Shown here piece after piece: positions 1 through 12,186 of a DNA stretch of 64,000 bases. How positions within the stretch are numbered: position 1 is the first letter of the stretch; every line of letters begins with the position of its first letter. Below the pieces are notes generated by a model. It did no database searches, had not been told where the DNA came from, and saw nothing but the letters and a program-made list of their open reading frames with translations. This stretch comes from Prochlorococcus sp. AG-402-N08 (GTDB taxonomy: Bacteria > Cyanobacteriota > Cyanobacteriia > PCC-6307 > Cyanobiaceae): NCBI GenBank assembly GCA_003216535.1, contig QCIS01000001.1, positions 124,001 through 188,000 of the forward strand, read 5' to 3'. Both the position numbers and the translations under genes were made by a program.

Positions 1-357
1 AATCTTTAATTCAGGTAAACTTAAAATCTTATCTGACTTAGATTTATATTTTACTTTTACACAATCCCATCTAGGATTATCAGGTTTCGATTTTGGATCA
101 AAATATTTCGAATCTTTATCAAATTGTGTAGGATCAACAATATTTAGATCTATTACCTCCATAAGTCCCACAATACCTGGGGGTTTACAGTTCGAATGAT
201 AGAAAAAAACCTTATCTCCTTTATCCATTTTTCTCATAAAATTTCGAGCCTGATAATTCCTTATTCCGTCCCATAAAGTTACCCCGTCCTTTTTTAAAGT
301 ATCAATGCTATAAGCATCAGGCTCACTTTTCATTAGCCAAAAATTTTCTTCAGTCAT
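1..357 (-). CDS. EVE-domain protein (3' end outside window)
   Basis: The reverse strand from the ATG at 355-357 encodes a protein beginning MTEENFWLMKSEPDAYSID, followed by LWDGIRNYQARNFMR and a K-V-F-F-Y-H-S stretch. This is the typical start of EVE-domain proteins, the PUA-like fold related to human THYN1 that is thought to bind modified bases. The reading frame is open to the window edge, so about 119 residues are seen and the C-terminus is missing. It is divergent from the HLIP operon. The family is clear; the biological role in cyanobacteria is not known. Confidence 0.85.
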   Translation of the reverse strand, partial: MTEENFWLMKSEPDAYSIDTLKKDGVTLWDGIRNYQARNFMRKMDKGDKVFFYHSNCKPPGIVGLMEVIDLNIVDPTQFDKDSKYFDPKSKPDNPRWDCVKVKYKSKSDKILSLPELKI

Positions 358-590
358 ATCAAGGTATTTGGAGGAAATTGCAAATCGTGAACGAATCGTG
401 AATGTAATATCATACTATTCGCTTTTATATATTTATTATCCATTAAAGTTTTTTTTCCGGAAAGTAAGATTTTCAAAATGTACTTTAAAGTATTAATACC
501 AATAATTTATTCATCTAATAAGCTACTTGTTTCAGGTTTACTCGTTTTATTTTGCTGAGAAGGTTTATCTATTTCATAATAAAATACAGT

Positions 591-601
591 TATGTAGCAG
601 T
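591..601 (+). promoter_or_regulatory. Conserved upstream element of HLIP locus 1
   Basis: TATGTAGCAGT lies 109 bases before the start of the first HLIP gene. The same 11 bases occur on the reverse strand at 21935-21945, 108 bases before the start of the other 35-residue HLIP gene. Conservation of sequence and distance suggests an upstream control site. The regulator is unknown. Confidence 0.45.
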
Positions 602-645
602 ACCGTGAAGATTTAATATAAAAATAAGTATATGCGACTGATTTC

Positions 646-684
646 TTTACATTAGTTAATACTTATGTTATATTTGTTTACATA
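646..684 (+). promoter_or_regulatory. HLIP promoter with HLR1-like (RpaB) site
   Basis: TTTACA at 646-651, a 16-base spacer and TTATAT at 668-673 make a plausible promoter. GTTATATT-TG-TTTACATA at 667-684 resembles the HLR1 site, which is two (G/T)TTACA(T/A)(T/A) half-sites separated by two bases. The first half-site has one mismatch and the second none. The site overlaps the -10 box, which would fit repression in low light. The same arrangement precedes the HLIP loci at 20663 and 21837. Motif match only, not tested. Confidence 0.6.
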
Positions 685-699
685 ATCATTCTTTTAATT

Positions 700-807
700 A
701 TGACACCTGAAGCAGAAAGATTTAATGGTTGGGCGGCAATGCTCGGTTTCGTAGCAGCTGTTGGCGCATACGTAACAACTGGTCAAATTATTCCTGGTTG
801 GTTCTAA
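700..807 (+). CDS. hli: High-light-inducible protein, 35 aa
   Basis: A one-helix relative of chlorophyll a/b-binding proteins. It is 35 residues long, with the core ERFNGWAAMLGF and the C-terminal signature TGQIIPGWF. HLIPs sit in the thylakoid membrane, bind chlorophyll and carotenoid, and protect photosystem assembly under excess light. The protein is identical to the one encoded at 21730-21837, although many codons differ. Its stop and the next gene's start overlap as TAATG, so the two are probably translationally coupled. Confidence 0.92.
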   Translation: MTPEAERFNGWAAMLGFVAAVGAYVTTGQIIPGWF

Positions 808-947
808 TGACAAATTCAAAAACAAAAACAATCGAAAAGGAAAAAGTTGTTGCAGAGACACTTAACGGCAGGTTTGCAATGCTTGGGTTAGTAGCTGCTA
901 TTGGCGCATATCTAACTACTGGACAAATTATTCCTGGGTTCGTTTAA
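807..947 (+). CDS. hli: High-light-inducible protein, 46 aa
   Basis: The ATG overlaps the preceding stop (TAATG). A charged N-terminus rich in Lys and Glu is followed by LNGRFAMLGLVAAIGAY and the TTGQIIPGFV end, the HLIP single-helix core with the chlorophyll-binding NGRxAM motif. It is closely similar to the 46-residue HLIP at 21590-21730, which has the same partner in the same order. A longer in-frame reading begins inside the previous gene, but the coupled ATG is the better start. Second gene of the HLIP operon. Confidence 0.92.
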   Translation: MTNSKTKTIEKEKVVAETLNGRFAMLGLVAAIGAYLTTGQIIPGFV

Positions 948-977
948 AAACCAATTCAAAAATTACTTAACTAAATA

Positions 978-1106
978 ATGGAAAACTCAAAACCAACTTA
1001 TTGGCAAAATGCCGAGAGAACCAATGGAAGAATGGCAATGATGGGTTTATTCGCATTGGTAGTAAACTACGGTCTTTTTGGCTGGATCATCCCAGGTATT
1101 TTTTAA
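978..1106 (+). CDS. hli: High-light-inducible protein, 42 aa
   Basis: This 42-residue protein has the HLIP motif AERTNGRMAMMGLFALV and ends FGWIIPGIF. The C-terminus replaces the usual TTGQ with NYGLFGW, so it belongs to a different HLIP subgroup from the two genes before it. It follows the 46-residue gene by 30 bases and precedes another small gene by one base, which suggests one transcript. It probably acts in the thylakoid membrane as a photoprotective pigment-binding helix. Confidence 0.9.
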   Translation: MENSKPTYWQNAERTNGRMAMMGLFALVVNYGLFGWIIPGIF

Positions 1107-1107
1107 A

Positions 1108-1203
1108 ATGAATGTAGACATTTTCTTAATCTCCTTCTTTACATATCTATTAGTGCCAGTGGTAATGATAGCTAAAGGAAAAAAGCAACTAATTAAAAAA
1201 TGA
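1108..1203 (+). CDS. Small single-helix membrane protein, 31 aa
   Basis: The predicted protein begins MNVDIFLISFFTYLLVPVVM, one hydrophobic helix, and ends in a basic tail AKGKKQLIKK. The start lies one base after the stop of the preceding HLIP gene, and the stop overlaps the ATG of the next gene. I do not recognise the family. Its place in the HLIP operon suggests a role with light-stress membrane proteins, by inference only. Confidence 0.6.
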   Translation: MNVDIFLISFFTYLLVPVVMIAKGKKQLIKK

Positions 1204-1379
1204 ATTTAGGTATTCTTTTTCTCTTAGTTAATGCAACTGGATCAATAACTTTATCCGAATTGGATTGGATTGCAGATCATCAATCAGAATTTTCAAGGTT
1301 AGATATGGCACTAGTTCTAAAGATTGGTCGCCTTATGGATGAAGGAATGATAGAACTTGATTGTAAATTGCCAGCATAA
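1200..1379 (+). CDS. Conserved small protein at end of HLIP operon, 59 aa
   Basis: ATG at 1200 overlaps the previous stop by four bases (ATGA). The 59-residue product has a short hydrophobic start (NLGILFLLV) and a soluble part with SELDWIADHQSEFSRLD and KIGRLMDEGMIELDC. The second half resembles a small winged-helix-like or helical bundle module, but I do not recognise the family. It is followed by a good terminator at 1404-1437, so it is the last gene of the operon that begins at 700. Confidence 0.65.
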   Translation: MNLGILFLLVNATGSITLSELDWIADHQSEFSRLDMALVLKIGRLMDEGMIELDCKLPA

Positions 1380-1403
1380 ATATTTAAAATTTAATCTTCA
1401 TGA

Positions 1404-1437
1404 GAGCTTGCTTTTAGCAATATAAGCGAGCTTTTTT
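1404..1437 (+). terminator. Rho-independent terminator of HLIP operon
   Basis: AGCTTGCTT and AAGCGAGCT form a nine-pair stem with one G:U pair, followed by six T. It ends the operon at 700-1379. Confidence 0.8.
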
Positions 1438-1465
1438 GTTTTCTATCTGTCATGAGTGTGTTCAT

Positions 1466-1646
1466 AAAAAAAAGGGCTAATTGCCCCTTATTGTGGATCG
1501 ACTGTCAATCAAGTTTTTGTTACTTGTGATGGGTGTATTTCTTAGGTATAAGTGGTTTAAGGACTTGTCCTTTTCGTAAGGACTTGAGCCTAGCGGTTTC
1601 AAGGTTAACCCCGCACTCCTACACATGGGTACAAAAACCTTTTTAA
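1466..1646 (-). ncRNA. Structured RNA of about 180 nt, 6S-like
   Basis: No open frame explains this block. On the reverse strand the ends pair (AAGGTTTTTGTAC near 1640 with GTAACAAAAACTT near 1510), inner segments continue a rod with internal loops, and the apex is a GTCCTT/AAGGAC hairpin. A perfect GGGC/GCCC hairpin followed by eight T ends the reverse-strand transcript at 1466-1486, and TTGATC with TAAATT 16 bases later precedes the 5' end. A rod of this length with a central bubble resembles bacterial 6S RNA. Strand and family were judged by eye; a plus-strand RNA is the alternative. Confidence 0.5.
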
Positions 1647-1747
1647 TTTATGAAGATTTCTTATTTGATCAATAGTATTCTCGACTAATTCCTACAATAT
1701 TATTTAATTGCTAACTGCCAATAACGATAGCAATTATAAAATTTTTG

Positions 1748-2464
1748 TTAATTTAATTCTTTCATCAATAAATTCCAACCAATTGATGATGCTTCTTTAT
1801 CGAAGGATTCTCTTTCCTCACACATAAAGCCATGATGAGCTCCTTTAACTTCAACATAAATAAATCTCTCTTCTAACGGATCTACTTTTTTAAATCTTTT
1901 TTTTATTTCTAATCTATCTTGTAAGGGAATTAAATCATCAGAAGAACCACAAATAAAATTTAATTTTCCAGAAACTTTTTCAAGTAAATCTAAAGGTGCA
2001 AAATTAGTATCGGATCTTGGTGTTGTAACTCCTGCTCCATAAAAACAAAATGAACTTTCTATTCCTTTTAATGAAGAAGCAATAAGTGCTGCATGACCCC
2101 CAAAACAAAATCCAATTATTGAGATTTTCTTTTGGGGATATTTTTCTTTAACCCAACTTATAGCTGCAGAAACATCTTCAATAATATTGTTTGAAGTAGT
2201 TAAATTTTTATAATGCCGGCCTAATTTTAAGTCCTCTTCGCTGTAACCCAAATCCAACTTTGGAGCTGTTCTACCGTAAAGTGGTAAGGCTAATGCAGAT
2301 ACATTTTGTTTGGCTAATTTTTGAGAAAAATTTCTTATCCAATTATTAATCCCAAATACTTCAGGTAAAACTATGGATATAAATCTACAATCATTCCCTG
2401 AATCTACCCACCAAGATCTAAGTGGTAAATCAGAACTATAAATGTTTGTCCATTGCCCTTTCAT
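1748..2464 (-). CDS. Dienelactone hydrolase family protein
   Basis: The 238-residue product is an alpha/beta hydrolase. The nucleophile elbow is GFCFGG with Cys120, the cysteine nucleophile typical of dienelactone hydrolases rather than a serine. The acid is in GSSDDLIP (Asp176 or Asp177) and the histidine in GAHHGF (His210 or His211), completing the triad. Length matches the family. In cyanobacteria the substrate is unknown, and carboxymethylenebutenolidase activity should not be assumed. It has no signal peptide and is probably cytosolic. A hairpin of the dispersed element family lies just upstream of its start, at 2490-2530. Confidence 0.85.
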   Translation of the reverse strand: MKGQWTNIYSSDLPLRSWWVDSGNDCRFISIVLPEVFGINNWIRNFSQKLAKQNVSALALPLYGRTAPKLDLGYSEEDLKLGRHYKNLTTSNNIIEDVSAAISWVKEKYPQKKISIIGFCFGGHAALIASSLKGIESSFCFYGAGVTTPRSDTNFAPLDLLEKVSGKLNFICGSSDDLIPLQDRLEIKKRFKKVDPLEERFIYVEVKGAHHGFMCEERESFDKEASSIGWNLLMKELN

Positions 2465-2778
2465 TTGTTTTAAGTAAAAAATTTTGCCAGAAAAAAGAGG
2501 TTTTATTCCTCTAAGTTTAAATCGATTTTCAATGTAAATTTTCCTTATCTTTTTTATAAATTAAATCTTAAATTAAAAAGAGAAACTTATACAGAAGTTG
2601 TTTTTACATAAGTTATATAAATCAACAAAAGTAGTCTTTATTACCAATTAAATAGATCTGTTTTTAAATGCATATTTTTGTCCTTGAAAACCTCCTAAAA
2701 CATACTTTTTCTTGAAATAAAGATTGACAAGACATTCATAAAAAAAACTTCTATAAAACATTAACTTCTTTTATAAAT
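2465..2778. other. Gene-free interval
   Basis: About 310 AT-rich bases between divergent genes. It holds the hairpin element at 2490-2530 and TTTACATA followed by TTATATAA near 2605-2622, a weak HLR1-like look-alike. I see no convincing small gene. Confidence 0.4.
2490..2530. repeat. Dispersed hairpin element, copy A
   Basis: Hairpin AGAGG/CCTCT followed (plus strand) by AAGTTTAAATCGA. It shares the layout hairpin + AAGTTTAGATCGA with copies at 13541 and 16674 and in part at 1466. Read on the reverse strand it is a terminator-like hairpin with a T run sitting 26 bases before the start of the hydrolase gene. Confidence 0.55.
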
Positions 2779-3087
2779 ATGTTTCTAACCAACAAAACTC
2801 GTTTAAAAATTAAGGATATTGTTAATAGGATTTCACTAAATAAACCTGTTTCATTGGAAGAAAGAATTTATGTAGAAAAGTTTTCAAAACATAATTCAAC
2901 AATATGGACATGGCTTAAGAAAGCTAACAGTTTGAGGAGATATGGCAAACAAAATTCAGATGGAATAAATGGACTTATCCAGAATCTTGGGCTCGATGGT
3001 TTAGAAACTGAAAATCATTTTGATCCCAAAAATGATGATCTTGCTGATTGGTTTAGCGGATCTCCTGATTGGGTGAGAAGAAGCTAG
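2779..3087 (+). CDS. Conserved hypothetical protein, 102 aa
   Basis: A soluble, Asn- and Lys-rich protein of 102 residues. It has a helical first half (VSLEERIYVEKFSK, TIWTWLKKANSLRRYG) and an acidic, Trp-containing end (DDLADWFSGSPDWVRRS). I recognise no domain. It has a clean ATG start and a good length for a real gene. It is monocistronic between a long AT-rich spacer and a small reverse-strand gene. Confidence 0.7.
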   Translation: MFLTNKTRLKIKDIVNRISLNKPVSLEERIYVEKFSKHNSTIWTWLKKANSLRRYGKQNSDGINGLIQNLGLDGLETENHFDPKNDDLADWFSGSPDWVRRS

Positions 3088-3147
3088 ATCTAAAATTAAT
3101 AAAGCTAAAAGTATAGTTGCAAAAATAAACAATAAACCCCAGTAAAT

Positions 3148-3255
3148 CTAAAAATAAGGTGTATATGGAATTTCTGTTTTCATTGATTCGCCGTAGTAAC
3201 TTTCAGCTGACTTTAGTAAGATCCAATAAATGAAGTCTAGAAATGATTTTTCCAT
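3148..3255 (-). CDS. Small SAESxYGES-family protein, 35 aa (copy 1)
   Basis: The frame is open for 84 residues, but the similarity to a second copy at 14783-14902 begins exactly at the internal ATG at 3253-3255, so I choose that start. The protein reads MEKSFLDFIYWILLKSAESY, then YGES, then a short tail. The two copies share EK, FxYWxLxxSAES and YGES. A half-hydrophobic helix followed by a polar patch suggests a peripheral membrane peptide. No known family is recognised. Confidence 0.5.
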   Translation of the reverse strand: MEKSFLDFIYWILLKSAESYYGESMKTEIPYTPYF

Positions 3256-3480
3256 AGGAAGACCTATATAACTATCCCAATTCCACTCAGAATCGCAAAT
3301 AAAAACATCGTAGAAAATACTTAATAGAAGAGATTTAGATTTTCTTAGTTTATATATGATGGCTAACTTTGTATGAAATGCTACTAAAGCTCTTCTTATC
3401 AATCGATTTGGTATTATTGCTTATTGATTCTTGTAATTTCAGAAGATATATTCAATGAACAAACTTAATATAAGAAATTT

Positions 3481-3597
3481 ATGAGTACTCAAAACAGTCA
3501 GAAATATAAAAGACAAGAGCAAAATAATACAGAATGGTTGGATGAATTAATCAATAAAATTGAAAAAATGAAAAACAAAATATCTAATTCTTATTAA
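3481..3597 (+). CDS. Small hypothetical protein, 38 aa
   Basis: A charged 38-residue protein (MSTQNSQKYKRQEQ, then TEWLDELINKIEKMKNKI) predicted to be one amphipathic or coiled-coil helix. A terminator follows 60 bases later, which supports a real transcript. No family recognised. Confidence 0.5.
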   Translation: MSTQNSQKYKRQEQNNTEWLDELINKIEKMKNKISNSY

Positions 3598-3657
3598 TTA
3601 ATTGCATCTTCTGTCGTTTATTGCGCTATTAAATATTTTTAAATATGTTTTTCATTA

Positions 3658-3690
3658 AGTCAGCTTTTAGCAAAACAGGCTGGCTTTTTT
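3658..3690 (+). terminator. Rho-independent terminator
   Basis: AGTCAGC and GCTGGCT pair over seven bases with one G:U, followed by a T run. It insulates the small gene at 3481 from the operon that starts at 3826. Confidence 0.75.
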
Positions 3691-3825
3691 AATGGAGTTA
3701 TTTTTTTGATTTTTGCGAAAAGTTATTTAACAATGTTCCAATAAGGTTCTTTTTAAGCAAGTTTATGGTTCATTTTTATTTTTATTGACAATATTGAAAT
3801 AAGTGAAAAAAAGAATTTTAAATTT

Positions 3826-5016
3826 GTGACTACTGAATCATCTCAAAATCAAGACTTTAAAAGGAAGCATCCCAGCGAAGGAATGGATGCTTTAGAAAAA
3901 GAATCAAAATTATCTTTGAAAGGATGGGAAAACGAAGTTGCCCGAGCAAAGGAATATGGTCTAGAAGCAGCTAAAAGCATTGTTGATAGAAAAATATCTA
4001 CATTTTCAAGAGGAGAATTACCTCATTTTGCGGGTATAAATACCTTCATGAAAGCTCCATATGTTGAAAATGTAAATGAAGTCGGAAATTATGATGTTGC
4101 TATAGTTGGTGTACCTCATGATTCCGGAACTACTTATAGACCAGGTACAAGATTTGGACCTCAAGGAATAAGAAAAATTTCTGCTCTTTATACTCCTTAC
4201 AATTACGAAATGGGAGTGGATCTGAGAGAGCAGATTTCTATATGTGATGTAGGAGATATTTTTACAATTCCAGCAAATAATGAAAAAAGTTTTGATCAAA
4301 TTTCAAAGGGGGTGGCTCATATTTTTGCTAGTGGTGCATTTCCAATTATTTTAGGTGGAGATCACTCAATAGGTTTTCCAACAGTTAGAGGAGTTTGTCG
4401 CCACCTAGGAGATAAAAAAGTAGGAATCATTCACTTTGATAGACATGTAGATACTCAAGAAACAGATCTAGATGAAAGGATGCATACTTGTCCATGGTTT
4501 CATGCAACTAATATGAAAAATGCACCTGCAAAAAATCTTGTTCAATTAGGAATTGGAGGTTGGCAAGTACCAAGAGAAGGTGTGAAAATTTGTAGGGAAC
4601 GAAGTACAAATGTTTTAACTGTTACTGATATTTGCGAAATGGGTTTAAAAGAGGCGGCTGATTTTGCGATTGAAAAAGCTACTGATGGAACTGACTGTGT
4701 ATATATTTCTTTTGATATTGATTGTATTGATGCTGGATTTGTCCCTGGAACTGGCTGGCCTGAACCTGGGGGTTTATTACCTCGAGAGGCATTAAAACTT
4801 TTGGAGTATATTATCAGAAAAGTAAATGTATGTGGAATTGAGCTTGTTGAGGTTTCTCCTCCATATGATGTAAGTGATATGACAGCCTTATTAGCTACTA
4901 GAGTTATTTGTGATTCAATTGCACATCTTGTAGTAAGTGGTCAGCTCCCAAGAAAATCTAAACCAGAATGGATTTCAGATAAATGCAATATGTCAGTTGA
5001 TCAAAAATGGAGATAG
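3826..5016 (+). CDS. gdmH: Nickel-dependent guanidine hydrolase (ureohydrolase family)
   Basis: An arginase/agmatinase-family enzyme of 396 residues starting with GTG. Metal ligands are visible: GGDH (His180), HFDRHVD (Asp205, His207, Asp209) and SFDIDCID (Asp297, Asp299). True agmatinases are about 300-320 residues; this protein has an N-terminal extension of about 70 residues, as in the Synechocystis enzyme Sll1077, which is known to hydrolyse guanidine to urea and ammonia with nickel. The next two genes encode HypA- and HypB-like nickel chaperones, followed by an ABC importer, the same order I recall for sll1077-sll1082. Substrate is inferred from context; databases would often label it agmatinase. 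No guanidine riboswitch is apparent upstream. Confidence 0.8.
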   Translation: MTTESSQNQDFKRKHPSEGMDALEKESKLSLKGWENEVARAKEYGLEAAKSIVDRKISTFSRGELPHFAGINTFMKAPYVENVNEVGNYDVAIVGVPHDSGTTYRPGTRFGPQGIRKISALYTPYNYEMGVDLREQISICDVGDIFTIPANNEKSFDQISKGVAHIFASGAFPIILGGDHSIGFPTVRGVCRHLGDKKVGIIHFDRHVDTQETDLDERMHTCPWFHATNMKNAPAKNLVQLGIGGWQVPREGVKICRERSTNVLTVTDICEMGLKEAADFAIEKATDGTDCVYISFDIDCIDAGFVPGTGWPEPGGLLPREALKLLEYIIRKVNVCGIELVEVSPPYDVSDMTALLATRVICDSIAHLVVSGQLPRKSKPEWISDKCNMSVDQKWR

Positions 5017-5022
5017 ATTTTC

Positions 5023-5379
5023 GTGCATGAAATAGATATGACAAAATGCCTTATTCTTTCCATGGAAGAGTGGGCAGAGAAAAAAAATAAAGAAAAAATA
5101 GTTGTTGAAAAGATTAATCTTAAGATTGGCGAATTTACTTGTGTAGAACCAATATCATTAATTAATACTTTTAATTCTGCAGTCTTGGGCTCTTGGTTAG
5201 ATTCCTCTGAGATTACTATTGAAACAATACCTTTTGAAGGAAAATGCTCTAAATGCAATAGTTCATATTTTCCTAAGAAAGAGAATGGATATAAATCTCC
5301 ATGTTGCAATTTTAATTTAGAGGAAATTATTAGCGGGAGGGAATTGAAAATTGCATCTATTAATTTTAAAGAAAAGTAA
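5023..5379 (+). CDS. HypA-like nickel insertion accessory protein
   Basis: Starting at the GTG at 5023 gives M-H-E-I-D-M, and His2 and Glu3 are the nickel ligands of HypA, so this start is strongly favoured. Zinc-type cysteines follow at C75-x2-C78 and C94-C95; the second pair is adjacent instead of the usual CxxC, which is unusual. Length is 118, typical of HypA. It starts six bases after the ureohydrolase stop. Together with the next gene it probably loads nickel into the ureohydrolase; no hydrogenase genes are seen here. Confidence 0.85.
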   Translation: MHEIDMTKCLILSMEEWAEKKNKEKIVVEKINLKIGEFTCVEPISLINTFNSAVLGSWLDSSEITIETIPFEGKCSKCNSSYFPKKENGYKSPCCNFNLEEIISGRELKIASINFKEK

Positions 5380-5419
5380 AAATTTAGTATCTAGAATAAA
5401 AATGTATTTTCAAAAATAA

Positions 5420-6100
5420 ATGCATTTACCAATTTCAGACAAAATTGAATTAAATATTCTTCATCAAAATAGTCATCAAGCTGAGAAAAATAAAGTAAAG
5501 TTCAATAATTATAATTTACTCTGCTTGAACATAATGAGTAGTCCTGGAGCAGGAAAAACAAGATTACTTGAAATAACTTTAGAAGATCTTTCAAAAGAAT
5601 TTCAAAGTGCTGTTTTAGAGGGTGATATGACTACTAACCTTGATGCTGCAAGATTAGAAAAATTAAATATTCCAGTAGTACCAATCACAACTGGAAGAGC
5701 GTGCCATCTCGATGCAAATATGGTTAGTGGAGGTTTGAAATTACTAGAAAAAAAAATCAATCCTAATATCCTAGATATTTTGTTAGTGGAAAATGTAGGA
5801 AATTTAGTGTGTCCTGCAGAATTTGAGATTGGGGAACATTTTAAAGTTGCACTTTTAAGTATTACTGAAGGTGAGGATAAACCTCTTAAATATCCCATAA
5901 TGTTTAGAGAAGCAGATTTAATTTTGATTACTAAAGTTGATTTATTGCCGCATTTAAATTTTGATATTAACGAATTAAAATCGAATATAGCATCAACTAA
6001 TCCCAAGGCAGATGTTATAGAAATTTCCTCGATAACTAAGTCTGGATTTGATTTATGGCAAAAATGGATTAGTAAAAAGATTCTGAAATTTAAAAAATAA
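5420..6100 (+). CDS. HypB-like GTPase, nickel insertion accessory protein
   Basis: A SIMIBI-class GTPase of 226 residues. The P-loop is MSSPGAGKTRLLE, followed by EGDMTTNLDAARL, VENVGNLVCPAEFEIGEH and TKVDLLPH (the guanine-recognition TKxD). These are the HypB signatures. The N-terminus lacks the poly-histidine nickel-storage stretch of some HypB proteins. HypB with HypA inserts nickel into apo-enzymes at the cost of GTP; here the client is most likely the ureohydrolase two genes upstream. Confidence 0.88.
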   Translation: MHLPISDKIELNILHQNSHQAEKNKVKFNNYNLLCLNIMSSPGAGKTRLLEITLEDLSKEFQSAVLEGDMTTNLDAARLEKLNIPVVPITTGRACHLDANMVSGGLKLLEKKINPNILDILLVENVGNLVCPAEFEIGEHFKVALLSITEGEDKPLKYPIMFREADLILITKVDLLPHLNFDINELKSNIASTNPKADVIEISSITKSGFDLWQKWISKKILKFKK

Positions 6101-6203
6101 GTAATATTGATTAATTAATAGTAATCTCTTAAAAGTATCAGTCATTACAACTTTAGATTTACTTTTTCTTAAGTATTGATAGTACGTAAAATTTTTTTTA
6201 AAA

Positions 6204-7202
6204 ATGTTCAAAAAATTAAGAGTTTTTGCGGCCTCTTTGCTTGCCCTGATATTAGCGATTTCATTAAGTACATTATCAAGCCCTGCCGCTCCAAAAGGAG
6301 AAACTATCACTTTGGGATACAGTAACTGGGCAGGATGGTGGCCGTGGGCAATAGCTGTTGATCAAAAAATGTTTGAAAAAAATGGAGTTAATGTTCAGAT
6401 GAAATGGTTTGATGGATATGTTCAATCCATGGAAACTTTTGCTGCTGGAAAAATCGATGGAAATTCGCAAACTCTTAATGATACTATTTCGTTCTTACCC
6501 GGAGAGAATGGAGGGGAAGTAGTAGTTTTAGTTAATGATAATTCTGCAGGAAATGACCAAATAATTGCAGATAAATCAATTAAAAGTGTTGCTGATTTAA
6601 AAGGTAAAACTGTAGCAGTAGAAGAGGGAGTTGTGGATGATTTTTTACTTGTTTTAGCTCTGAATGATGTTGGATTAACTAGAGATGATGTAATTATTAA
6701 AGGTTTGCCAACTGATCAGGCTGCAACTGCATTCGCAGCAGGAAAAGTCGATGCAGTTGGTGCATTCCCTCCTTTTACCGGAACTGCAATGAAGAGGCCT
6801 GGAGCAAGAGTTATTGCTAGTTCAAAAGAATATCCCGGCGCAATCCCTGATTTATTAGCTGTAAGCGGAGATTTGATTTCTGAAAGACCAGATGATGTTC
6901 AAAAAATTGTTAAAACTTGGTGGGATATAAGAGAATTTATGGAAAAAAATCCAAGAAAATCTGAAAAGATTATGGCAAAACGAGCTGGGATCCCAACACG
7001 TGAATACAAACAATATAAGGGTGGAACTAGGTTCTTTTCTTTGGAAGAAAATCTAGAAGCTTTTAGTGATGGCTTTGGCATGAAATATATGCCTTATGCA
7101 GCGAAACAAATGGCAGACTTTATGGTAAAGGTAGGATTTATTCCTGAAAAACCAGATATGAGTAAATTATTTGATTCTTCTTTTGTTGAAAATATTAGTT
7201 AA
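6204..7202 (+). CDS. ABC transporter substrate-binding protein, NitT/TauT type
   Basis: A secreted binding protein of 332 residues. The signal peptide is a basic MFKKLR start, a hydrophobic core ASLLALILAISLSTL, and a probable cut near SSPAAP. The mature part has GYSNWAGWWPWAIAVDQKMF and DLKGKTVAVEEG, typical of the NMT1/THI5-like (NitT/TauT/SsuA) family. It is the first of three importer genes. By analogy with Synechocystis sll1080-sll1082 it may bind guanidine or a related guanidino compound. There is no lipobox, so it is a free periplasmic protein. Confidence 0.85.
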   Translation: MFKKLRVFAASLLALILAISLSTLSSPAAPKGETITLGYSNWAGWWPWAIAVDQKMFEKNGVNVQMKWFDGYVQSMETFAAGKIDGNSQTLNDTISFLPGENGGEVVVLVNDNSAGNDQIIADKSIKSVADLKGKTVAVEEGVVDDFLLVLALNDVGLTRDDVIIKGLPTDQAATAFAAGKVDAVGAFPPFTGTAMKRPGARVIASSKEYPGAIPDLLAVSGDLISERPDDVQKIVKTWWDIREFMEKNPRKSEKIMAKRAGIPTREYKQYKGGTRFFSLEENLEAFSDGFGMKYMPYAAKQMADFMVKVGFIPEKPDMSKLFDSSFVENIS

Positions 7203-7218
7203 TTAATAAAAAATTAAA

Positions 7219-8037
7219 ATGGTTAGTTCGAAATTAATCAAGAGGGATAAAAAATATTTATCCCTCTTTTCATTTGGTATTGAACCGAAAAAATTAAATA
7301 AAATATTTCTTCAAATTGCTTCACTTTTGCTTCCCCTTTTAATTTGGACAATAGTGTGTGAATTAAAACTTGTGAGTGAAATGTTTTTACCATCTCCGTT
7401 GGCCGTCTTTTATTCTCTTTTAGATATGGCTGAAAGTGGAATATTATTTGAAGATATTTTTGCAAGTACTGGAAGGGTATTTGCTGGTTTTATAATTGCG
7501 ACAATTTTTTCTGTTCCTTTAGGAATTTTAATGGGTTCTTTCCCTTCTTTTTGTGCTTTATGTGAACCATTAATTGCAATGCTTAGATATATGCCTGCTG
7601 CTGCTTTTTCTCCTTTGCTTATTATTTATTTAGGAATTGAAGAAGCTCCAAAAATCGCATTAATTTTTATTGGTACTGTTTACTTTAATATTTTGATGGT
7701 TATGGATTCAGTAAAATTTGTACCCAAAGAACTAATTGAAACAACTCTTACCTTAGGAGGAAATACAAAAGATTTATTGATCAGAGTAATAGCCAGATAT
7801 TCATTGCCAAGTATTATTGATACTTTAAGAATTAATATTGCTACTTCATGGAATTTAGTTATTGTTGCAGAGTTGATTGCAGCAGAAGTTGGTTTAGGCA
7901 AAAGGATTCAACTAGCTCAAAGATTTTTTCGCACAGATCAAATATTTGCAGAATTAATAATTCTTGGATTAATAGGATTTGCTTTGGATATGAGTTTTAG
8001 ATTGCTACTTAGACGTACATGTAAATGGGCTGTTTAA
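7219..8037 (+). CDS. ABC transporter permease, NitT/TauT type
   Basis: A 272-residue inner-membrane permease with about six hydrophobic segments. It has the family EAA-like loop region (ELIETTLTLGGNTKDLLIRVI and ARYSLPSIIDTLRI) that docks to the ATPase. The MLRYMPAAAFSPLLIIYLGI stretch is typical of SsuC/TauC-like permeases. It lies 16 bases after the binding protein gene, and its stop abuts the ATG of the ATPase gene, so it forms one importer with both. Confidence 0.88.
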   Translation: MVSSKLIKRDKKYLSLFSFGIEPKKLNKIFLQIASLLLPLLIWTIVCELKLVSEMFLPSPLAVFYSLLDMAESGILFEDIFASTGRVFAGFIIATIFSVPLGILMGSFPSFCALCEPLIAMLRYMPAAAFSPLLIIYLGIEEAPKIALIFIGTVYFNILMVMDSVKFVPKELIETTLTLGGNTKDLLIRVIARYSLPSIIDTLRINIATSWNLVIVAELIAAEVGLGKRIQLAQRFFRTDQIFAELIILGLIGFALDMSFRLLLRRTCKWAV

Positions 8038-8799
8038 ATGAAATTAGATGTTAATAATATTTCAAAATATTTTGGGGAAGGTTCAAATAGAAAAAAGGCA
8101 ATCGAGGGAATAAGCTTTTCAATAAGTTCTGGCGAATTTAAAACTCTTGTTGGGAGCTCTGGATCAGGTAAAAGTACTATATTGAGGATAATTGCTGGGC
8201 TTGAGAGTCCATCTAAAGGGAATGTAAAAGTAGATGGAAAAATAGTTAGTGGTCCCGGTTTGGATAGAGGAATGGTTTTTCAGAAGTATAGTCTTTTCCC
8301 TTGGCTCACTGCATCTGAGAATATTGCATTTGGAATGAATTTAAATTCTTATAAATTGAAAGAAATAAAATATAGAACATCTTATTTACTAGAAGTAGTA
8401 GGTCTCCAGGATTCGGCAAACAAGTATCCAAAAGAATTATCTGGAGGAATGCAACAAAGAATTGCAATTGCAAGAGCTCTAGCGACTAACCCCAAAATCT
8501 TACTTTTAGATGAACCTTTTGGAGCCTTGGATTTGCAGATAAGAGAATCTATGCAGAAATTTCTCTATGAATTATGGAAAAAAACTTCATTGACAGTTTT
8601 ACTTATAACCCATGATATTGAAGAAGCATTGGCCCTTTCTCAGCAAATATGTATTTTGGCACCAAACCCTGGAAGAATCATAAAAGAAGTTAAGGTAGAT
8701 TTACAAAAAGGTGATTTAGATCAATTGAGACTTGATTCGGATTTTTCAAAGTTACGATATGAATTATCTGATTTTTTAAGAAGCCTCCAAAAACATTAA
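8038..8799 (+). CDS. ABC transporter ATP-binding protein, NitT/TauT type
   Basis: A 253-residue ATPase with Walker A GSSGSGKST, the Q-loop MVFQKYSLFPWLT, signature LSGGMQQR, Walker B ILLLDEPFGALD and the switch His in LLITHD. SsuB/TauB-type length. It starts immediately after the permease stop and the Rieske gene starts three bases after it, so all these genes appear to be one transcript. Confidence 0.92.
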   Translation: MKLDVNNISKYFGEGSNRKKAIEGISFSISSGEFKTLVGSSGSGKSTILRIIAGLESPSKGNVKVDGKIVSGPGLDRGMVFQKYSLFPWLTASENIAFGMNLNSYKLKEIKYRTSYLLEVVGLQDSANKYPKELSGGMQQRIAIARALATNPKILLLDEPFGALDLQIRESMQKFLYELWKKTSLTVLLITHDIEEALALSQQICILAPNPGRIIKEVKVDLQKGDLDQLRLDSDFSKLRYELSDFLRSLQKH

Positions 8800-8802
8800 A
8801 TA

Positions 8803-9825
8803 ATGTCAATTAGTTTTTTGCCTACTTGGCTCTATAACGACCAAAAAATATTTGAACTTGAATTAGATAAATATTCAAAAAATTATTGGCACCCATTGAT
8901 TTTTTTAGGAGAAATTAAACCTGGGGAAATATTAGAAAAAAAATTTTTTAATCAATCTTTATTTATCTCTTGTTCAGAAAATAGTTTAATAACTGTTTTT
9001 AAAAATAGATGTCCTCACCGTGGTGCGAAATTATGTTTGCCAAAAACAAAATTAAATCCTTCCACAAATATTTTTTGTCCTTACCATGGCTGGACTTTTG
9101 ATAGTTTTGGTAAACTTAAAACCTTTCCATTAAAGTACGATTTTGAAAAGAAAATAGAAACAGGTGATTATTTTTTAGAAAAAGTTAACTCTTTAGTAAA
9201 TGGACCTTTAATTTGGATTAATTTCAGCAAAAAACCGATCTCCATAGATGATCAAATTGAGCTTGTTGGGAGAAAATGTAATGATGAATGGGATATGAAT
9301 TATGACGTTTTTTCTGAATTTTTTGATACCTTAAATTGCAATTGGAAAATTGCCCATGACAATACATTGGATGATTATCATGTAGCAATCGCTCATAAAG
9401 ATACCTTACATAAAGAACAAGGTCCAATTAAAAACTACAGGTATTTTTTCAGTGAATTTTGTAATGTACTTGTTACCCCTCTTAGTAGTAAAGGAAATCT
9501 ATATACCTTTGGATTACTTCCATGGACCCATCTAATAATCTGGCCTGGAAAAGGTATTGTTTTAATAAATTATCTACCTAAAAATATTGATCAGTGTATT
9601 ATTGAAATTAAATTAGCATCTGCATCTTTGTGTGAAAATGATTTAGAAAATTGGAAAAAAAGTATATTAGAATTCATTTGGGAAGATAAAGTTATTGTCG
9701 AATCAGTTCATAAGTCTTATATGGAAAATTTTAAACTTGGACCGCCTAATAGACTTGAGCAAAGGATTATACACTGGCAAAAGATTTATAAAGATTTTCT
9801 AGATAAAAGTGGTATTTCTTTCTAA
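8803..9825 (+). CDS. Rieske non-heme iron oxygenase alpha subunit
   Basis: A 340-residue ring-hydroxylase-type oxygenase. The Rieske [2Fe-2S] ligands are Cys70 and His72 (CPHRG) and Cys92 and His95 (CPYHGW). The catalytic iron site is NTLDDYHVAIAH with His193 and His198, and Asp190 in the place of the bridging acid. It is the last gene of the guanidine-type operon. No reductase or dedicated ferredoxin gene is nearby, so electrons may come from the cell's ferredoxins. Known relatives hydroxylate or demethylate small molecules. A guanidino or N-methyl substrate feeding the hydrolase is my inference from position only. Confidence 0.88.
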   Translation: MSISFLPTWLYNDQKIFELELDKYSKNYWHPLIFLGEIKPGEILEKKFFNQSLFISCSENSLITVFKNRCPHRGAKLCLPKTKLNPSTNIFCPYHGWTFDSFGKLKTFPLKYDFEKKIETGDYFLEKVNSLVNGPLIWINFSKKPISIDDQIELVGRKCNDEWDMNYDVFSEFFDTLNCNWKIAHDNTLDDYHVAIAHKDTLHKEQGPIKNYRYFFSEFCNVLVTPLSSKGNLYTFGLLPWTHLIIWPGKGIVLINYLPKNIDQCIIEIKLASASLCENDLENWKKSILEFIWEDKVIVESVHKSYMENFKLGPPNRLEQRIIHWQKIYKDFLDKSGISF

Positions 9826-9945
9826 TATTAATCCAATTTATTGCACTAAGATTATTAATTAAATTAAATTTTTTATTTGGTAGGGATTTAACTAATATTT
9901 AATAGGCCTTATTTATAATGTAGTTTAAATACTAAAAAGTTGATT

Positions 9946-10263
9946 ATGAAAAATTTTATACTAGTAATAGTATCTTTATCTTTCCTATCTTCTTGCAGTA
10001 ATGACAAAGATTTTTTTCTCACGGAGAGAAACGCTTTGTTAAGTTGCGGAGGTAAATCTCGTATCATCGAAAATGATAAAGAAGAGATTATAAATACTGA
10101 AGTGAAGGATTTAAGAGATGGAATTGGTAAATATGTTGAATTTACAGTTGTAGAGACTGACAAAAAAGGAGGAAAATATAGAATTATTAATTGTTTCCCA
10201 AGTGAAGAACCACAAGATTCAATAATAAAAACTGTTAAAACAAATTATAAATTAAGTAATTAA
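9946..10263 (+). CDS. Small lipoprotein, 105 aa
   Basis: A lipoprotein signal peptide is visible: MKNFILVIVSLSFLSSC, with LSSC as the lipobox. The mature part is small and polar with two more cysteines (LLSCGG, IINCFPSEE) that could form a disulfide in the periplasm. The ATG at 9946 is preferred to an upstream TTG at 9940. The family is not recognised. It is separated from the operon before it by 120 bases and may have its own promoter. Confidence 0.65.
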   Translation: MKNFILVIVSLSFLSSCSNDKDFFLTERNALLSCGGKSRIIENDKEEIINTEVKDLRDGIGKYVEFTVVETDKKGGKYRIINCFPSEEPQDSIIKTVKTNYKLSN

Positions 10264-10400
10264 AAGTTATTTAAAAACAACTAAATCACTCTTTTTAAAA
10301 TTTTTGAATTTAAGATTAAGTAGTAAGCATTTCAATAAAAATATAGCTACCGAAAATAGATTTTTTTAGGATTATATTAATAAAACAAAGGGAGAATGTA

Positions 10401-10778
10401 ATGTCTATCATTACCGATAACACAGTGCTGGTTCACATTTATAGCGGTTTAGATTCCATAAATAAAGTAACTTTAGGTTTATTAGTTGCCCTCGAAGCAG
10501 AAAAAAACGATCATAAAGTAACTCTTTTTCTTGCGGGGGACGGAGTAAACTTATTAAGTTGCAAAAAAGCTGGCGAAATAGTTGGTCAAGGCACTGGAGA
10601 TTTATTCGATCATCTGGAAAATTTAAAGAATTCAAAAGTTAGGATATATGTCTCAAAAGCATCAGCTAAATCAAGAGGTTATGATGAGAAGCTCTTGAAA
10701 GGATATAGTGCGGAGTTTGCAATGCCAGATGTACTAGTTGATGAGTCAATCAAAGCGGATAGCATCCTTTGTTATTAA
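10401..10778 (+). CDS. DsrE/DsrF-like protein
   Basis: A 125-residue protein with the DsrE-like fold. It starts with a beta strand (NTVLVHIYSG), then LGLLVALEAEKNDHKVTLFLAGDGVNLL and a C-terminal conserved patch PDVLVDESIKADSILCY. Relatives take part in sulfur relay or bind small ligands; the function here is not known. A clear GGGAG ribosome site precedes the ATG. It converges with the LOG-family gene. Confidence 0.8.
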   Translation: MSIITDNTVLVHIYSGLDSINKVTLGLLVALEAEKNDHKVTLFLAGDGVNLLSCKKAGEIVGQGTGDLFDHLENLKNSKVRIYVSKASAKSRGYDEKLLKGYSAEFAMPDVLVDESIKADSILCY

Positions 10779-10799
10779 TTCTTTATTAAAACTGAAGTT

Positions 10800-11675
10800 T
10801 TAATCAGATATTTTTGATGATTTGATAATTGTCCATGCTTCTGATGCGGTGTCTGCATATTGGAAAAGATTTAAGTGTTCATCTTCAATTAATCCAAGAT
10901 CAGCTAGATATTCAAAGTTAATTATCTTATTCCAATACTCTCTTCCAAAAAGTATGATTGGGATTTTAGTTTTCATGCCTGTTTGACAAAGTGTCAATAT
11001 TTCAAATAATTCATCTAGTGTTCCAAAACCTCCAGGAAAAAATACAGCAGCCACTGATCGCATAACAAAATGGATCTTTCTTAATGCAAAATAATTAAAT
11101 TTAAAGCAAAGACCTGGAGTTATAAAAGCATTTGGTATTTGTTCATTATGGAGACTTATATTAAACCCTATAGACTTACAATTTGCTTCAAATGCTCCTC
11201 TATTAGCAGCTTCCATAATCCCTGGCCCACCACCCGTCACAATTACGTGCGAATTACAGTTTTTATTTTGATTACTAATTGAAGCAAGTTTCGAAAAATC
11301 CCTTGCGGATTGATAGTAGTGACCCATCAATAGCAAATTTTCTAATCTATTTAAATTTCGTTTTAGAAGTATCGATTTAGGATTTTTTTTAATTAACTCT
11401 TTTATATTTTCAATTCTCTTTTTTGTATTTGATTCTTCTGTGATGCTTGCACCTCCAAAAATATTTATGGTTGAAAAAATTTTATTTTCTTCAAGGATTA
11501 AATCTGGTTTAGTAATTTCAAGAAGCATCCTGACTCCACGCATTTCATTTCGGCTAAGTAAACCAATATCTTCGTGAGCCAATTTATAAGTATCAGAATT
11601 AATAATTAAATTCAGGTTTTTAAAATTATTAATTTTAGGCGAAATATGCCTTTTCGTTTTTTTCATTTCAAACAA
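10800..11675 (-). CDS. LOG family protein (nucleotide nucleosidase-like)
   Basis: The 291-residue protein has the two LOG signatures: GGGPGIMEAANRGAF and PGGFGTLDELFEILT. LOG-family enzymes cleave nucleoside 5'-monophosphates to ribose 5-phosphate and a base; some make cytokinins, others recycle nucleotides. An N-terminal extension of about 90 residues precedes the core. Its start overlaps the end of the cupin-like gene by eight bases, so they probably share a transcript. Old annotations may call it lysine decarboxylase, which is not supported. Confidence 0.85.
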   Translation of the reverse strand: MFEMKKTKRHISPKINNFKNLNLIINSDTYKLAHEDIGLLSRNEMRGVRMLLEITKPDLILEENKIFSTINIFGGASITEESNTKKRIENIKELIKKNPKSILLKRNLNRLENLLLMGHYYQSARDFSKLASISNQNKNCNSHVIVTGGGPGIMEAANRGAFEANCKSIGFNISLHNEQIPNAFITPGLCFKFNYFALRKIHFVMRSVAAVFFPGGFGTLDELFEILTLCQTGMKTKIPIILFGREYWNKIINFEYLADLGLIEDEHLNLFQYADTASEAWTIIKSSKISD

Positions 11676-12186
11676 GATTTTTAACTTTTCTTACTAGAGG
11701 ATTAAAATCAACTCTTTTGATTTTGTTATTTTCGTAAATCCAATAAACAGGTGGACTTTTTCTTGCCTTAACTAAATTAATTTTGTCTAATTTTTGTGGG
11801 ATAAATTCTTTAGCAGGATCAAAAAATTTATCTCTTTTGGGTTGATTTAAAACAATACTACCTTCTTTCCCTGAGATTGATCTGTGATAAGTTCCTATAG
11901 GTATTTCTAATACTCCCATAGATCTATTTAAATAAATCACATGATGAGGTTCATCCCAGGAAGGATTTATTAAAACAAATGTCCTTTGCCCGGTGATAAC
12001 TAAATTGTGGTCAATTTGATGATTGTGAACATAGTATTGCTCATCTTTTAAATCATCTGGAGGAGATATAGCTTCCCCAGAATGGATCACGACATCAGAA
12101 CCATTAGAACTATCTATGTCTGCATCGAAGAATGTGACTTTTGGAGTCTCTCTAAAAACATTAATTGGGAAGAATCTTAATTCCAT
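11668..12186 (-). CDS. Cupin-like protein
   Basis: A 172-residue protein with a jelly-roll pattern, HNHQIDHNLVITGQRTFVLI followed by GVLEIPIGTYHRS, reminiscent of RmlC-like or cupin folds. The histidines HNHQIDH could bind a metal. It is the first gene of a pair with the LOG-family gene, overlapping it by eight bases. I cannot assign a reaction. Confidence 0.65.
   Translation of the reverse strand: MELRFFPINVFRETPKVTFFDADIDSSNGSDVVIHSGEAISPPDDLKDEQYYVHNHQIDHNLVITGQRTFVLINPSWDEPHHVIYLNRSMGVLEIPIGTYHRSISGKEGSIVLNQPKRDKFFDPAKEFIPQKLDKINLVKARKSPPVYWIYENNKIKRVDFNPLVRKVKNLV

Follow-up and report, generated by a model that had tools for sequence, protein, structure and literature searches.

A Rieske oxygenase in a Prochlorococcus guanidine operon as a candidate dealkylase of imported substituted guanidines

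The closest described relatives of the locus studied here are cyanobacterial guanidine clusters. The Synechocystis sll1077-sll1082 operon holds a hydrolase, HypA, HypB and an SsuA-type importer (PMC8390497; PMC12186494), and Dore et al. (2023; PMC10119275) described a cluster in Prochlorococcus (Pro-eCAG_004) and Synechococcus (Syn-eCAG_001) that in both genera comprises speB2 (the sll1077 orthologue), hypA, hypB and a TauABC-like importer. A Rieske gene, CK_00002251, lies downstream in most Synechococcus and Cyanobium carriers and, according to the same authors, sets the picocyanobacterial cluster apart from that of Synechocystis; the relevant parts of the paper give it no reaction, treat it solely as an indicator of iron use and leave it unnamed for Prochlorococcus (PMC10119275). 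Here we analyse seven plus-strand genes at positions 3826-9825 of a 64,000-nucleotide stretch of Prochlorococcus sp. AG-402-N08 (contig QCIS01000001.1, positions 124,001 to 188,000; hereafter the window), which are, judging from their sequence, a guanidine-assimilation operon of this published kind and a further member of the cluster. A sequence-only reading of this DNA had held that these parts are not combined in any known system; this was wrong, since the cluster with its Rieske gene had already been described (PMC10119275), and the novelty claimed for the combination falls away, while the reading's account of the hydrolase, chaperones and importer, and of the Rieske enzyme's membership, has held up. 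We propose, with slightly better than even confidence, that the Rieske enzyme of this operon removes an alkyl group by oxidation from an imported substituted guanidine, possibly methylguanidine, and so frees guanidine for the hydrolase GdmH.

The seven genes encode, in order, GdmH, HypA, HypB, a substrate-binding protein, a permease, an ATPase and the Rieske oxygenase, separated by 6, 40, 103, 16, 0 and 3 bases; the open reading frames, positions and gaps given in the sequence-only reading were all reproduced, and Pfam and NCBIfam scans bear out the set of ureohydrolase, HypA, HypB, importer and Rieske enzyme that it named. The gdmH gene (3826-5016, GTG start, 396 amino acids) encodes a predicted nickel-dependent guanidine hydrolase of the Arginase family (267 bits in the Pfam scan), with the motifs GGDH, FDRHVD and DID, which presumably carry the metal ligands. 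Among Protein Data Bank (PDB) sequences its top match, at 751.9 bits over residues 14-396, is 7esr/7oi1, which we take to be Sll1077/GdmH, the Synechocystis guanidine hydrolase; 9fek, presumably the Nitrospira inopinata guanidinase, follows at 567 bits, and all others score 173 bits or less, placing the protein nearer to Sll1077 than to the agmatinase, arginase and guanidinobutyrase group of ureohydrolases. An agmatinase identity was considered, as the NCBIfam agmatinase model narrowly passes its cut-off on this protein (182 versus 174 bits) and agmatinase is named as the old annotation of the family (PMC10119275); it is ruled out by the PDB scores.

Both nickel chaperone genes adjoin the hydrolase gene. 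The HypA-type metallochaperone (5023-5379, GTG start) passes the cut-off of PF01155 with 74 bits and falls short of that of TIGR00100 (70 versus 88 bits); it carries CxxC and CC motifs, and its GTG-His-Glu start becomes M-H-E once initiated, as the earlier reading had noted. The HypB-type nickel-inserting GTPase (5420-6100) scores 276 bits with TIGR00073, over the cut-off. Inside the same operon lie the importer genes, for the SsuA/NitT/TauT-type binding protein (6204-7202; SsuA family, TIGR01728, 271 bits, over the cut-off), the permease (7219-8037) and the ABC ATPase (8038-8799), the last two assigned by the Pfam and NCBIfam scans. The best solved relative of the binding protein reaches only 43 bits and none is close; from its operon, the importer would take up guanidine and probably also N-substituted guanidines. 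The family scans and the 752-bit match to 7esr support the reading of the hydrolase as a nickel enzyme of the guanidine type that comes with chaperones and an importer, and urease alpha is encoded in the same genome, so urea should be usable by the cell.

The Rieske gene (8803-9825) keeps close company with gdmH. Among 200 genomes of the genus, a Rieske sequence of this kind occurs in 53, gdmH in 46 and both in 43; the ten genomes with the Rieske sequence and no gdmH match comprise eight in which it lies at a contig edge and two (G109 and G125) with 3' remnants and none of the other operon genes in the stretch read, and in all three genomes with gdmH and no Rieske sequence gdmH lies at a contig edge. 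Across 300 genomes of the family (Rieske E <= 1e-40, gdmH E <= 1e-100) the counts are 71, 98 and 69, so that gdmH is found in 69 of 71 Rieske carriers versus 29 of 229 non-carriers; the association tests count related genomes as independent, so that their p-values overstate the link. The two carriers without gdmH are draft genomes (81% and 89% complete) in which the locus reaches a contig end. Co-occurrence with gdmH-type genes, which the sequence-only reading had put forward as a check, is thus borne out. The two genes lie within 7 kb in 64 of the 69 genomes, on different contigs in three and more than 140 kb apart in two; in the latter, gdmH-hypA-hypB lies 147 and 164 kb from a binding protein-permease-ATPase-Rieske run on the same contig, so that the Rieske gene adjoins the importer there too, and no placement beside unrelated operons was seen in close strains. 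A contig scan yielded 57 close loci (L119-L175), of which 41 extend far enough upstream to judge, and gdmH has the same position beside the Rieske gene in all 41. Searches with Rieske and GdmH peptide patterns gave no match on any viral contig. At L280 (1392-1529) and L281 (1803-2183), in two Prochlorococcus-type genomes, only a 3' part of the Rieske gene survives and the stretch read contains none of the other operon genes; these two sites are likely scars left when the cluster was lost.

Beyond the family, homologues of this gene also stand next to genes of another guanidine route. When 291 genomes were searched across the class, 25 outside-family Rieske homologues came to light, and reading the stretch around each revealed a guanidine link at 17. 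Four lie inside gdmH operons (L272, L273, L274 and L286), and one, with a broken reading frame, beside hypB near a contig end (L288); seven stand away from gdmH in a run of riboswitch, ligase, importer and Rieske gene (L263, L264, L265, L267, L268, L269 and L271), and five lie within about 4 kb of a gene for a "urea carboxylase", of the family to which guanidine carboxylase belongs (L260, L261, L262, L266 and L276). Three have only importer genes beside them (L270, L277 and L289), and for five the stretch read offers no link to guanidine (L275, L278, L279, L285 and L287). In seven outside-family Rieske genomes no gdmH match reached E <= 1e-120 and the locus read contained no part of gdmH; in five of these, from two families, the carboxylase gene lies beside the Rieske gene, and only G547 and G673 lack it in the stretch read. 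The carboxylase model TIGR02712 scores 1844-1872 bits in four loci and 1295 bits in one partial frame (cut-off 1304), an allophanate hydrolase gene occurs in the three carboxylase loci of family f16, and UAAP1 and UAAP2 occur in L262, L266 and L276, the three loci where those open reading frames were scanned. In f16 the Rieske gene is present in three of eight genomes, with the carboxylase gene about 1.7 kb away in all three. Members of this carboxylase family are described as favouring guanidine over urea (PMC12186494). Because the Rieske gene is paired with two unrelated guanidine-degrading routes, its product would most likely either make guanidine or act on the cargo of the guanidine importer. 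Two further genes near these homologues may be recorded: a methyltransferase at L278 (7880-8653) that exceeds the cut-off for GntF of guanitoxin biosynthesis (110 versus 60 bits) and adjoins a divergent Rieske homologue, and a protein of about 260-290 amino acids with a weak HRI1-like match at L265 (8524-9393), with related open reading frames in seven more loci, near the Rieske gene.

The enzyme itself has what a Rieske non-haem iron oxygenase alpha subunit requires. The Rieske and Ring_hydroxyl_A families (PF00355 and PF00848) both score over their cut-offs, and the CxH/CxxH cluster ligands C70, H72, C92 and H95, the iron ligands H193, H198 and D295 and the bridging carboxylate D190 are all present; their roles are taken from the family pattern, and those of the aspartates also from an alignment to CntA. 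None of these residues varies among 90 homologues, the most distant of which share about 33% identity, and mean dN/dS against the close loci is about 0.19, indicating purifying selection, and 0.04-0.12 for the other operon genes (7 to 53 pairs per gene, taking only pairs of equal aligned length). The enzyme could, on the least generous view, be a co-inherited iron enzyme with no role in guanidine use, as its gene is under the loosest constraint of the seven and goes unmatched in 29 of the 98 gdmH-bearing family genomes; the close co-occurrence, the conserved metal ligands and the independent placement beside a second guanidine pathway make this very improbable. Co-occurrence, linkage to the importer and conserved ligands instead support the earlier reading's view of the enzyme as part of the guanidine system, and together the comparisons show that the protein is no passenger but belongs with guanidine use.

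As to its reaction, the closest solved relatives by profile are carnitine monooxygenase (131 bits) and 3vca and 4qup (108 and 107 bits). Carnitine monooxygenase (CntA) presumably splits a C-N bond, and we take 3vca and 4qup to be stachydrine demethylases, so that the closest solved relatives would act on N-alkyl compounds. In the scheme that we infer, the importer would carry guanidine, and probably N-substituted guanidines too, into the cell, where the Rieske enzyme would hydroxylate a substituted guanidine on the carbon adjoining its guanidino nitrogen, giving a hemiaminal that would break down to guanidine and an aldehyde, which for methylguanidine is formaldehyde. With nickel supplied by HypA and HypB, GdmH would then convert guanidine to ammonium and urea, and the genome's urease would complete the breakdown. 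As the operon contains no reductase gene, photosynthetic ferredoxin is the likely electron donor; like the donor, the Rieske substrate and product and the range of the importer belong to the inferred part of this scheme. We favour methylguanidine as the simplest candidate substrate, with agmatine, arginine relatives and creatine as further candidates. A guanidinase is reported to give no detectable urea from methylguanidine, a result said to match work on the cyanobacterial enzyme (PMC11410670), so that use of methylguanidine would call for a dealkylase. In the guanidine operon of Vreelandella boliviensis, a 2-oxoglutarate dioxygenase and a lyase are described as demethylating methylguanidine to guanidine and formaldehyde (PMC12508155), and it is this precedent, together with the N-alkyl relatives and the guanidinase result, that leads us to favour oxidative N-dealkylation; the sequence-only reading's idea that guanidine is set free by demethylation or a like oxidation would thus fit best.

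The window's genome also encodes a second, distant Rieske protein (contig C3, 81755-82354, 29% identity, 441-codon frame), which has counterparts in many genomes of the genus. A 58-row tree groups the family's Rieske rows only with open support (91/100) and places this long-branched protein among them, and for both reasons we draw no evolutionary history from it.

Relatives of the operon add a further enzyme. In loci with a diverged importer, which we label freshwater-type, an extra gene between hypB and the binding-protein gene passes the cut-off for type III glutamine synthetase; among solved structures its product comes closest to 9qur, named a glutamate-methylamine ligase (397 bits), and 7cql, a GmaS structure (338 bits). 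Judged by residues that distinguish GmaS from glutamine synthetase in PMC7948447, all 31 full-length copies are GmaS-type in having Thr for Asp50' and Trp for the flap Glu and in keeping Asp177, Glu186 and Arg312, and all 31 depart from GmaS in having Ser at Gln175, Asp at Asn188 and Phe at Trp189. The ligase gene is present in 56 of the 300 family genomes (E <= 1e-150), all 56 of which have gdmH and 47 the Rieske gene; once 20 genomes with the marine-type operon are left out, it occurs in 47 of 49 Rieske carriers with gdmH versus 9 of 29 others. Near the guanidine operon at L208, a ligase closer to GmaS (565 bits to 7cql) lies beside an alpha/beta hydrolase of the PRK07581 family (141-1457 and 1503-2876), and other freshwater-type loci have weaker ligase matches; a PRK07581-family hydrolase gene also begins 10 bases after the Rieske gene in L270, where the open reading frame was scanned, with a related frame likewise placed in L272 and L273. 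The ligase and hydrolase genes hint at methylated nitrogen compounds, with the substrate not fixed by them.

This co-occurrence, and the riboswitch-ligase-importer-Rieske order in seven outside-family loci (L266 and L276 have the ligase, importer and Rieske genes in a different order), would suit a scheme in which, in these relatives, the ligase joins glutamate to an amine such as methylamine before the Rieske enzyme oxidises the product, as an amine-use module under guanidine control. We consider this quite unlikely, as the operons of Prochlorococcus and marine-type Synechococcus keep the Rieske gene without such a ligase, and the single match in the window's genome (126 bits, in a 481-codon frame) is probably an ordinary glutamine synthetase. 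A broader form of our own proposal, in which a Rieske N-dealkylase with a shared importer is a new enzymatic source of guanidine for GdmH or the carboxylase and the ligase catches the amine by-product in many lineages, we hold tentatively, with rather less than even confidence.

Several observations weigh against guanidine-releasing dealkylation. Simple demethylation yields formaldehyde, not methylamine, which by itself leaves the methylamine-ligase-like gene of relatives unexplained, and natural sources of methylguanidine are called elusive in PMC12508155, except for its abiotic formation from creatinine. The Rieske enzyme's identity to enzymes of known substrate is low (78 bits with the glycine betaine monooxygenase GbcA model NF058607, whose cut-off is 670), so that its substrate cannot be read from the sequence. 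The gene is unmatched at E <= 1e-40 in 29 of 98 gdmH-bearing family genomes, and three further f16 genomes carry the carboxylase gene without it; for guanidine use itself, it is therefore dispensable. In the 11 loci fetched from those 29 genomes (L221 and L223-L232), all three importer genes are present. Outside the family, five of the 25 Rieske loci (one starting at a contig edge) have no guanidine link and three have the importer alone, and where the carboxylase gene is present (five loci), the riboswitch is next to the Rieske gene, not upstream of it. In the window itself, no guanidine-I riboswitch matched at E <= 1 within positions 1-12000, leaving the first gene without a 5' aptamer there, unlike the Synechocystis operon, which has one (PMC12186494). 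Finally, in the two split one-contig genomes the Rieske gene tracks the importer and not gdmH, which fits import unrelated to guanidine as well.

The last of these observations is what one would expect if the substrate of the Rieske enzyme were a different small N-methyl compound or amine, taken up by the same importer and co-used with guanidine under nitrogen shortage, and such a role would also accord with the methylamine-ligase-like genes in or near the operon of freshwater-type relatives and with the carnitine and betaine-like compounds that the nearest named Rieske relatives handle. Against it stand the presence of gdmH in 69 of the family's 71 carriers, a guanidine carboxylase set next to the Rieske gene in five of the seven gdmH-less carriers outside the family, and guanidine-I riboswitches at 13 of the 19 outside-family loci scanned, which suggest guanidine as the signal; we regard it as a serious but on balance unlikely alternative to dealkylation of a substituted guanidine.

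Regulation of the operon may differ between lineages. The guanidine-I riboswitch is present at 13 of 16 gdmH-bearing family loci scanned and at none of three loci with only importer and Rieske genes (L183, L185 and L187). In the window, a candidate NtcA box of the form GTA-N8-TAC (GTATCAGTCATTAC, plus strand, 6135-6148) lies 69 bases 5' of the binding-protein gene and could mark an internal promoter; it is conserved in 46 of 46 distinct hypB-binding protein spacers from the window and close loci. Because 36 of the 92 other columns of these spacers are invariant too, and no clear -10 box was seen near 6135-6148, it stays a candidate. A second, weaker GTA-N8-TAC candidate on the plus strand at 3371-3384, 455 bases 5' of gdmH, is retained in many close loci, not all, and may be chance or another gene's element. 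Control may have moved from the sensing of guanidine to the general nitrogen response. The terms "NtcA" and "glutamine synthetase" do not occur in the main text of PMC10119275.

Prochlorococcus is the most abundant photosynthetic organism of nitrogen-poor oceans. If our proposal is right, it and its relatives could scavenge substituted guanidines, a further part of dissolved organic nitrogen, and the question left by Dore et al., that of the Rieske reaction, becomes directly assayable (PMC10119275). Theirs was the only paper with a Rieske gene in a guanidine cluster that we found in the open-access literature searched.

Set beside characterised enzymes and operons, the locus has partial counterparts. 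Among solved Rieske oxygenases, CntA and the stachydrine demethylase Stc2 come closest to the window's enzyme by profile (131 and 108 bits) and act on N-alkyl substrates; they differ from it in their low similarity, in their operons and in that no reductase gene adjoins the window's Rieske gene. The ligase in relatives of the operon resembles GmaS (PMC7948447); the window has no such gene. Like the Vreelandella operon, that of the window places an iron oxygenase in a guanidine operon, importer included, a parallel by analogy only; its seven genes are of families other than the 2-oxoglutarate dioxygenase and hydroxymethylguanidine lyase, and it has a Rieske enzyme and GdmH where Vreelandella has the dioxygenase, the lyase and a guanidine carboxylase (PMC12508155). 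Compared with the account of Dore et al. (PMC10119275), what is new here is that the place of the Rieske enzyme in guanidine metabolism is better supported.

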